Below are positions 19,695-37,149 of a stretch of 37,149 nt of DNA, one piece after another. Each line of letters begins with the position of its first letter. The stretch's first letter is position 1. The notes beneath the pieces were generated by a model. The model saw nothing but the letters and a program-made list of their open reading frames with translations, was not told where the DNA came from and ran no database searches. The position numbers and the translations under genes are program-made. The stretch covers positions 1 to 37,149 of the forward strand of contig JAKLFY010000064.1 of NCBI GenBank assembly GCA_022710935.1, written 5' to 3'. Source of the stretch: Verrucomicrobiota bacterium (GTDB lineage Bacteria; Verrucomicrobiota; Verrucomicrobiia; Limisphaerales; J093).

Positions 19695-19785
19695 TGGCGG
19701 AGAGAGGGAGATTCGAACTCCCGGTGGGGTATAAGCCCACTCACGCTCTCCAGGCGTGCGCATTAAACCACTCTGCCATCTCTCC
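19695..19785 (-). tRNA. tRNA-Ser, anticodon GGA
   Basis: On the minus strand the acceptor 5' arm GGAGAGA (19779-19785) pairs with TCTCTCC (19699-19705). The anticodon stem ACGC/GCGT encloses the loop CTGGAGA, giving anticodon GGA (reads UCC). A long variable arm typical of serine tRNAs follows, and the T arm contains GGAGTTCGAATCTCC. Discriminator G and an encoded CCA end at 19695. The 5' end faces the recombinase gene. Confidence 0.95.
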
Positions 19786-34312: not shown

Positions 34313-34735
34313 GTGGCGATGGGCTTGCGGTTGTCCCAGAAGTCCCAGCTTCGAGGAGGAAAAGCGCCGGCCATTGGAACAACCTCGCGCTGCGGTTGGG
34401 CTTTGGTCTTGCCGCGACCACGGGGTCTTGTGGTTTCGGCGCTTCTCGAGTCAGCTTCTCCTGCGCTCTGGAGGGGCCGCGCGGCCCCATCGCGATTCCG
34501 TGCCCCCGATCTTGGACCCCCACGGAATCGCAGGCCCCTTAGGAACCGCTTTCCTGGAGATTCTCGCTGACACAGCACATGAGCCTCGAACCGGCTTCGC
34601 TGCCCCGGGTGTCATTCTGGCAGGTCCTTCCGAATGATCACCCCCAAGCTCTGTCTTGCTCGTCTTTTCACTTGCCCTCAGCCGCGATTCGAACTACCGC
34701 CATGAGCAAGCTGTTGAAACTCCGGTCCTTTGGCT
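34313..34735. other. Intergenic region with strong palindromes; no gene
   Basis: No frame resembles a protein. It contains the palindromic block at 34473-34540 and may include the terminator of the DUF488 operon and the promoter of the PIG-L remnant, neither clear. Confidence 0.4.
34473..34540. repeat. Compound palindrome: GGGGCCGC dyad plus 11-bp hairpin
   Basis: A perfect 16-bp palindrome, GGGGCCGC (34473-34480) with GCGGCCCC (34481-34488), is followed by GCGATTCCGTG (34492-34502) pairing with CACGGAATCGC (34521-34531), and then by GGCCCCTT (34533-34540), which can pair back with the first arm. The whole block can fold as one large or two smaller hairpins. Confidence 0.75.
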
Positions 34736-35342
34736 ATGAAAACTCCTCGATTCCTCTGCTCTTCTGGGATGCCTCGCCGCTCGTTTCTCAATCTCGCGGC
34801 GGTCACCCTGTCCTCGTTTGCGGCGAGCCGTTTGCAGGCGCAACCGGCCGAGCGCAAGCCGCCCACCGGTGACGGCAAGCTGCGCATCATCGTTTTTGGC
34901 GCCCATCCAGACGACTGCGAAGTCAGCGCCGGCGGAACCGGCGCCAAGTGGGCCGCACAGGATCACCGAGGATGAGTTCCAGCGACCCAACCCCTTCACG
35001 CCGGACGTGGTGGTCGCGATCGACGATGTGGTCGAGAAGAAGCTCGCGGTGATCGAGGCGCTCGAATCCCAGTTCTATGAAGGTGGCTGCAACGGAGGCC
35101 CCCACCTGGTGCCGGACCCCAAGGACGCGGCCGCGGTGGCGGCGAGGAAGAAGGCCGTCCGCGAGGAATGGGCGGGCTACTTCTCCGCCACGGCGAAACG
35201 ATTCCGCGCCGTGCTCGCCCAGCATTACGGCAAAGAACGCGCGGAGACGGTCAGATTCGCCGAGGGATTTGAGATTTGCGAATATGGCCGCAAGCCAGAC
35301 CGGGAGGAACTGAAGCAGCTTTTCCCGTTTTTCGGAGCCTGA
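34736..35342 (+). pseudogene. PIG-L family deacetylase, middle deleted and out of frame
   Basis: The 5' frame encodes a Tat-like signal (PRRSFLNLAAVTLSSFAAS) and the PIG-L/LmbE metal motif AHPDDCE, then GGTGAKWAA, and stops soon after at about 34975. A second frame carries the family C-terminus (DEFQRPNPFTPDVVVAIDD, YEGGCNGGPHLVPD, FAEGFEICEYGRKPDREEL) and ends at 35342. The join near 34960 skips the central part, normally well over 100 residues with the remaining metal ligands. The enzyme would have been an exported N-acyl-glucosamine-type deacetylase. It is now inactive, unless the join is an assembly error. Confidence 0.82.
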
Positions 35343-35515
35343 CCGTCCTCCCCAAGTCAGTTGAAGCCGCTTCGCCCGCTGATCCCGCGAACGCACCCCT
35401 TCAGGACCGACGCACCGGCAGGAGGCCGGGGGCATTTGCCCTTGCTGGTCTCGGTCAACCGCCTGAGCGCATCGCGGAGTTTGATCGCTTCCGTCCGGCC
35501 AGATAAGCTGCCGAC

Positions 35516-36170
35516 GTGGATACGTTGCTGCGCATCGCCCCGGCAGCGGTTTGCGCCCGACTGTTGGCGGCCAGCCTCCTCGTGGCCGTGGTCCAGTCGG
35601 CAAAGGGTGCCTCCGACCAAGAGGGCGCGCCGGCGACACCGCGCGTTCTGAACAACTTCACCGCGGAACTACTGCGGCTCAGCCGCCCGACCTTGGCGAC
35701 CAACGCCTCCTGGCGCTTCACCCAGCCGCGCACGGGTTGGCTGTGGGTCCGCAGCGAATCACCCGTCCAGGGTGTCGGCACGCTGGAAATGGTCATCGAA
35801 CCGATCAAGCCGGGCACCGTGGTCGATGCGCGGCAGGAAGTGCGCGACGATACCGCGAGCCGGTGGCTGTTGCGTCATGATGCAGCGAAGCCGAGCGTCC
35901 AGGAAGCCATGCGGTTTCTGCCGGCTGGCGACTATCAGCTCACCGGTTTCAAAGCGGGTGCCACGACGCTCGACAGCCTGGTCATCTGCGCCGTTCCAGA
36001 GCTGATCTTCTGCAAGTTTCAGTACGACCCCCTTGTGCCGCCGCACGGGCCGTATGACTGGGCGTTCCTCGAAAAGCACGTCCTGGCGCACGTCAACTGC
36101 ATCGTCGGCAACGGCGCCGACACCCATGCGCCCCTGGCGCAACAGTGGAAGCAGCGAGGCGAGCGAGACA
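35516..36170 (+). pseudogene. Secreted-protein gene cut off at about 36.16 kb
   Basis: From GTG 35516 a frame encodes a signal peptide (ARLLAASLLVAVVQSAKGAS) and about 215 residues of good protein, including TNASWRFTQPRTGWLWVRSE, a RFLPAGDYQLTGF beta turn, AVPELIFCKFQYDP, GPYDWAFLEKHVLAHVN and IVGNGAD. The pattern fits large extracytoplasmic proteins of Verrucomicrobiota and Planctomycetota with an N-terminal beta domain followed by a TIM-barrel-like part. After about 36160 the frame remains open to the window end, but it reads antisense to the metallophosphoesterase gene and no longer looks like protein. The gene is therefore 3'-truncated by a join. Confidence 0.6.
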
Positions 36171-37042
36171 TCAAGCATCTTCCGCGGCTCAGTGACCCAC
36201 TGTTGGGCTCCATAATTGTACGGCAGCGCCAGGAGCCGCCCGGCCTGGAATCGGACCACCATGAATTCCCGTTGCCCATTGGGTGCGGGGGAAGGCAGTT
36301 GCACGAAAGTGCGGTTGCGGTACTGGTCCACCTGCGCTTTGTGGTAGTGACCGCCGAGGATGAGAACCACGTTCGCCTCGCCGAGGGTGTCGATGAACTG
36401 GTCCCGATTGGTCAGCGCATCGAGGCAGAGATGCATGGCCACGACGACCGGAGTTCCAGCAGGTCGGCGCTTCAGGTCTTGAGCGAGAAAACTCAGAGCC
36501 TCGCGGGAAAGGGCTTGCGCCGGGTTCTTCAGGCTCTCGTCGTAAGCAGAGAACAGCGCGATGAAATGAATGCCCGCGCGGTCGAAGGTGTAGGAAAGGG
36601 CACCGTGCCGCCGGACCAACCACTGCTTCATGGTTTCCACCGGCGCGTCGCCGCCTTCATCGTGGTTGCCGAGGATGTCGAAGCTCGGCCATTTCAACCG
36701 GCGTGTGATCGACTCCGTGTACGTGTCTCGCGCGGCGGCGGAGGGCCATTCCGTGATGTCGCCGCAACCGAACACGAACGCCGGTTCGCTGACCTTCCCT
36801 CCAAATCGGTCTGGATACGGCGTGCCAGACAGCGCGTTCATGGCGTCGATGGCCGCGTGCAGGTGCGCACCCTCACCGCTTGCCTGCACGTGCTGGTCCG
36901 ACCAACCGAAGAAAGTCAGTTCGCCGGTCCGAGGCGGCGGCGGCGCTTCGCCCGCACGCGGGCATGTACCGAGGGCGACAAGCAGCGCGACGAGGAGAGC
37001 GGCGATTTGACGCTGCACGGAGGATCGTCTTGGCTCAAGCAT
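35759..37042 (-). CDS. Secreted metallophosphoesterase, C-terminus replaced at the join
   Basis: The calcineurin-like phosphoesterase motifs are complete: SDQH (Asp49, His51), GCGD (Asp95), GNHD (125-128), VVAMH, and LILGGHYHK. An N-terminal basic and hydrophobic segment (RRSSVQRQIAALLVALLVAL) is a signal peptide, so it acts outside the cytoplasm on a phosphoester of unknown identity. ATG at 37042 was chosen for the signal peptide; the frame opens earlier at 37126. Recognisable sequence ends near EPRKMLDVSL at about 36155-36190. The frame then continues to 35759 antisense to the truncated plus-strand gene, so the last 130 or so residues are probably not native. Confidence 0.78.
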   Translation of the reverse strand: MLEPRRSSVQRQIAALLVALLVALGTCPRAGEAPPPPRTGELTFFGWSDQHVQASGEGAHLHAAIDAMNALSGTPYPDRFGGKVSEPAFVFGCGDITEWPSAAARDTYTESITRRLKWPSFDILGNHDEGGDAPVETMKQWLVRRHGALSYTFDRAGIHFIALFSAYDESLKNPAQALSREALSFLAQDLKRRPAGTPVVVAMHLCLDALTNRDQFIDTLGEANVVLILGGHYHKAQVDQYRNRTFVQLPSPAPNGQREFMVVRFQAGRLLALPYNYGAQQWVTEPRKMLDVSLASLLPLLRQGRMGVGAVADDAVDVRQDVLFEERPVIRPVRRHKGVVLKLAEDQLWNGADDQAVERRGTRFETGELIVASRQKPHGFLDARLRCIMTQQPPARGIVAHFLPRIDHGARLDRFDDHFQRADTLDG

Positions 37043-37149
37043 GCCGAACTGATCTGGCGCCGACACGAAATCGGCAAGCGGAAACCACGGCCACCGGGCC
37101 GGCAGGCAGGACGAGCACATGGGCATGCGGCCCCTGCCAAACTCTTGGA
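37043..37149. other. Window end; no gene recognised
   Basis: This is the upstream side of the metallophosphoesterase gene and should contain its promoter. Nothing specific is seen in this short stretch. Confidence 0.3.

Follow-up and report, generated by a model that had tools for sequence, protein, structure and literature searches.

A head-on join of two partial genes in a Verrucomicrobiota draft genome and its probable origin by deletion

Near the right end of a contig from a Verrucomicrobiota bacterium, a plus-strand gene for a secreted-type protein and a minus-strand metallophosphoesterase (MPE) gene meet head on, and the question is which event brought them together. The window, meaning the whole 37,149-base stretch of DNA that was analysed, is one entire contig, C221, from a draft genome whose 259 contigs total 7,519,762 bases, with an estimated completeness of 95.7% and contamination of 4.29%. 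The first-pass annotation described both frames correctly: the plus-strand ORF starts at 35516 and meets no stop before the contig end, the minus-strand ORF runs from 37126 to 35759, and each continues antisense through the other gene. The head-on join is a real feature of the assembly, and its most likely reading is a real join made by an ordinary deletion. Bacterial genomes contain pseudogenes made by microhomology deletions. We saw nothing relevant to this junction in the literature and make no claim that it is absent from print. Elsewhere the window holds an ordinary tRNA-Ser (gga) on the minus strand (19695-19785).

Two genes of unequal preservation

The MPE gene lies on the minus strand at 36156-37042; a start at 37042, where the sequence looks signal-like, is likelier than one at 37126. 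Among 58 genomes the protein matched 21 at E<=0.001, and among 320 genomes of the order it matched 39 at E<=1e-8, its own genome being included in each count. The three closest homologs outside its own genome are 47-52% identical, have native ends in frames of 284, 315 and 284 aa, and stop 2-3 residues beyond the point where the window breaks off; a further copy, which this genome carries on contig C193, likewise runs two residues past the break and then stops. Because all four end so soon, the window gene is nearly whole, having lost just about two codons and the stop. A scan of genome contigs with the MPE gave two loci only, at 27-28% identity.

Calcineurin-like phosphoesterases carry the metal-ligand pattern D-x-H, GD, GNH, H and GHxH. 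In the alignment, the window MPE and its three close homologs have SDQH, GD, GNHD, H and GHYH, with varying residues around them. The likeness to the calcineurin-like family (PF00149) consists of this motif pattern and weak profile matches: the window MPE is not above the gathering cut-off (18.4 vs 21.5 bits), and its 52%-identical homolog L038 clears it (24.3 vs 21.5 bits). The window MPE also falls below the equivalog cut-off of NF050112, the model for the cyclic nucleotide phosphodiesterase SpdA (26.8 vs 400 bits), and its similarity to SpdA is distant. No solved structure related to it was found at E<=0.1.

The plus-strand gene is represented by its 5' third (35516-36160), 215 codons kept of about 600-700, apparently with a GTG start and a signal-like N-terminus. 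Queried with these first 215 residues, 4 of the 58 genomes matched at E<=0.001 and 10 of the 320 genomes of the order at E<=1e-6, its own again included in both. The alignment comprised ten homologs whose frames are long (602-700 aa, stop to stop) and omitted two short matches of about 200 aa (L058 and L015); L064, a second fragment of one homolog, was set aside. All ten keep a Trp (36146-36148) and a Gly (36158-36160), and after this Gly codon the window departs from them. Since the homologs continue beyond the residue at which the homology of the plus gene stops, the gene is short of about 400 residues, some two thirds of its length. Neither the retained part nor the full-length homolog L056 contains a Pfam family that we could find. 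The missing part was not found in the genome's own assembly with a full-length homolog as query (E<=1), an absence that we count as moderate evidence given a distant query and a draft genome. The segment that leads into the plus gene and covers its beginning (35447-35588) is 73% identical to G005:C500:283-427, which precedes a different gene that we take from its look to be thioredoxin-like; this is perhaps a dispersed upstream repeat.

Both homologies end at one place. The first-pass annotation set it at about 36155-36170; the coincidence holds, and alignment of both proteins to their homologs moves the precise site to 36156-36160, with boundaries at 36160 for the plus gene and 36156 for the MPE. 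The bases GAGGC at 36156-36160 fit both genes, as the match between the MPE and C193 sets in at 36156 and the plus-gene Gly codon occupies 36158-36160. The two homologies thus overlap by 2-5 bases, the GG of the Gly codon alone being firm for the plus gene. These boundaries, the homolog lengths and the short overlap are direct observations. Both genes had been called truncated, and both do lose homology here, but far more is gone from the plus gene (about 400 residues) than from the MPE (about two residues and the stop). A hairpin or quasi-palindrome at the break (arms 36137-36148 and 36197-36208) was considered and rejected as an inverted repeat that is weak against random positions: 544 of 5000 such positions reach its gapped score, and 146 of 3000 (about 5%) its ungapped one.

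Read-through beyond the join

Past the join, the MPE frame runs antisense to the plus gene for 131 residues and a stop (35759-36154, minus strand), and in the ORF listing the plus frame runs antisense to the MPE (36161-37147) and is open to the contig end. In line with the first-pass annotation, no full-length MPE homolog sharing the last 130 residues was found, and the tail is absent from the C193 copy and from all three close homologs. Against the 320 genomes, the 131-residue tail matched the window itself and, weakly, G266:C61:4959-5213 (E 2e-4), which lies antisense to a homolog of the plus gene (G266:C61:4947-5210). This sole outside match confirms that the tail is antisense translation of the plus gene; it contains no Pfam family.

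The antisense frame is codon-aligned in both genes and can be closed solely by sense-strand TTA, CTA and TCA. These codons make up 0.69% of all codons in 279 long frames from sampled DNA of the same genome (at least 400 codons, counted as genes by length alone), and of the 2580 300-codon windows taken from these frames, 910 contain none. Since the three codons are rare and so many windows are open, long antisense read-through is unremarkable and needs no special cause; the MPE part has none in 295 codons and the plus part two in 215. With its catalytic core kept, the MPE may be produced even now, ending in about 131 residues unrelated to the native protein. That the join has yielded a new expressed fusion, namely an exported phosphoesterase with an intact core and an antisense-born tail of that length, is highly improbable.

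Origin of the join

We propose that the join is an ordinary deletion between convergent genes, closed by non-homologous end joining, an origin that seems probable without being assured. Such a deletion would have taken the 3' two thirds of the plus gene, then the space beyond that gene, then roughly the final two codons of the MPE along with its stop; the ends would then have been joined at 2-5 bases of microhomology, leaving each frame to read antisense into the other gene. End joining with microhomology leaves such short overlaps. Under this explanation, the best we have for the locus as a whole, the plus gene is a pseudogene; the two genes would have been adjacent before a single deletion, and the join would be present in the genome of the cell and not just in the assembly. 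The locus resembles the microhomology-deletion pseudogenes of bacteria in its short or absent overlap at the join, in having partial genes on both sides and in having a decayed gene nearby; it differs in that we infer the deletion itself and found no ancestral arrangement. The two genes were not seen side by side in a relative among the 58 and 320 genomes searched with each protein or the 14 searched by DNA, the own genome included in these sets. Neighbours were inspected at three MPE loci and one plus-gene locus: the MPE is convergent to its neighbour in two of the three relatives that have a close MPE (G192 and G175, not G166), and in none of the three is this neighbour the plus gene.

The first-pass annotation had offered inversion, deletion or chimera, of which deletion fits. 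Inversions typically give head-on joins, and an inversion that broke both genes here and left their remaining halves at another place in the genome would produce one; however, the genes face each other anyway, so a plain deletion suffices for the head-on picture and inversion is unneeded. Moreover, searches of the assembly did not turn up the other half of the plus gene, and C193 holds a native MPE 3' end with 978 bases beyond it that match nothing else in the genome. Inversion is the least probable of the origins considered.

Assembly or amplification chimeras occur in draft genomes, and they share with this locus the head-on join of partial genes; a chimeric contig would mean that the join arose in library preparation or assembly and is in no cell. 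The 259 contigs and the contamination estimate of 4.29% are compatible with this, as is the unresolved branch in which C221 ends, about 870-990 bases from the join and 107 bases upstream of the MPE start. This right end (37023-37149) overlaps exactly, over 127 bases, with the ends of contigs C57 and C16, which points to a branch of the assembly graph, and overlaps of this length suggest graph assembly with k=127. Within 36991-37149, 95-127 bases are common to the ends of C57, C16 and C199 (L008, L009 and L010), and C57 and C16 continue alike past the shared end for about 700 bases at 86%; the stretch, which gave matches of only 25-35 bases in 3 of 24 other genomes searched, is likely a repeat that breaks the assembly. 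At the join, by contrast, no repeat was found that spans it and would give graph assembly cause to err: 20-, 25- and 31-mers crossing the junction do not recur in 50 other loci of the genome, DNA searches of the whole genome gave no further match that crosses it, and C221 and C193 share no exact run longer than 77 bases, which is below the 127-base contig-end overlap. The continuation of the plus gene, expected in an assembly that is 95.7% complete, was not found elsewhere in it either. A chimera is therefore disfavoured and, in our judgement, unlikely.

A more substantial alternative, which we regard as possible and still rather doubtful, is an insertion or translocation in which a copied MPE segment entered the plus gene, or a larger rearrangement took place, between genes that were not neighbours before. 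Two copies of the MPE, 93% identical and differently flanked, are present in its own genome, and G001, a genome of the same genus, has a remnant in yet another setting; because the surroundings of the MPE differ among C221, C193 and G001:C48, the gene may have moved. Duplications of 0.4-2.4 kb also exist elsewhere in the genome. A self-comparison of 969,394 bases (the window and 50 loci of the same genome, a sample of about one eighth of its 7.52 Mb) gave 52 unclassified pairs of at least 150 bases and 80% identity, a few of them listed in both directions and 44 of them shorter than 360 bases; more joins like the present one may exist in the genome. On the other hand, the MPE loss falls within a few codons of the natural 3' end, as deletion between convergent genes predicts, and the rest of the plus gene was found on no other contig. 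A mobile unit with a fixed end at 36156 was rejected, not with certainty: the mutual similarity of C221, C193 and G001:C48 breaks off at a single position, give or take one base, and the natural MPE 3' end about 10 bases further on accounts for this boundary. Among 14 genomes of the family (own included, 21 candidates scored in each), these three were the only copies of the MPE 3' end at E<=1e-5.

Copies of the phosphoesterase gene and apparent decay around them

The MPE stretch shared with C193 at 93% identity covers 36156-36817 on the minus strand and corresponds to C193:42660-43321 (L007:7661-8322). Between the two copies there are 35 synonymous and 14 non-synonymous differences, and the resulting dN/dS of about 0.11 suggests that the MPE was under selection during much of their separate history. 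The C193 gene (L007:7471-8332) has lost its first 70-75 residues, including the first metal motif; what precedes it instead is the end of a helicase-like gene that carries an MrfA Zn-binding domain, so that this genome has a second join of one gene to another. In G001, a remnant of the MPE 3' end lies between two long frames (L136:9197-9264 on G001:C48), with 52 bases at 85% identity to the window and 68 bases at 79% to C193.

Directly left of the plus gene is a PIG-L deacetylase-like gene (34730-35342, plus strand). Compared with a paralog on C233 (L079), which is a clear PIG-L protein, it has undergone a separate internal deletion, about 360 bases long and located near 34970, its reading frame changes, and its front piece is a weak PIG-L match. 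A palindromic non-coding element further left (34437-34535) is 86-94% identical over 85-99 bases in three genomes of the family, G005, G001 and G013; its RNA fold has a z of -2.5, no Rfam family reaches the gathering score there, and a 21-residue match to the DUF488 neighbour of the window lies beside the G001 copy only.

In view of the PIG-L deletion of about 360 bases, the front loss in C193 and the short remnant in G001, this region gives the impression of genes in ordinary decay. Read in this way, the MPE would be seen in three states of decay, with its stop lost in C221, its front lost in C193 and a remnant of less than 70 bases left in G001. For annotation of such loci this carries a warning, since automatic calls across the join could yield a protein of 544 residues or more, or one of 455 residues, with antisense read-through making up a large part of it.
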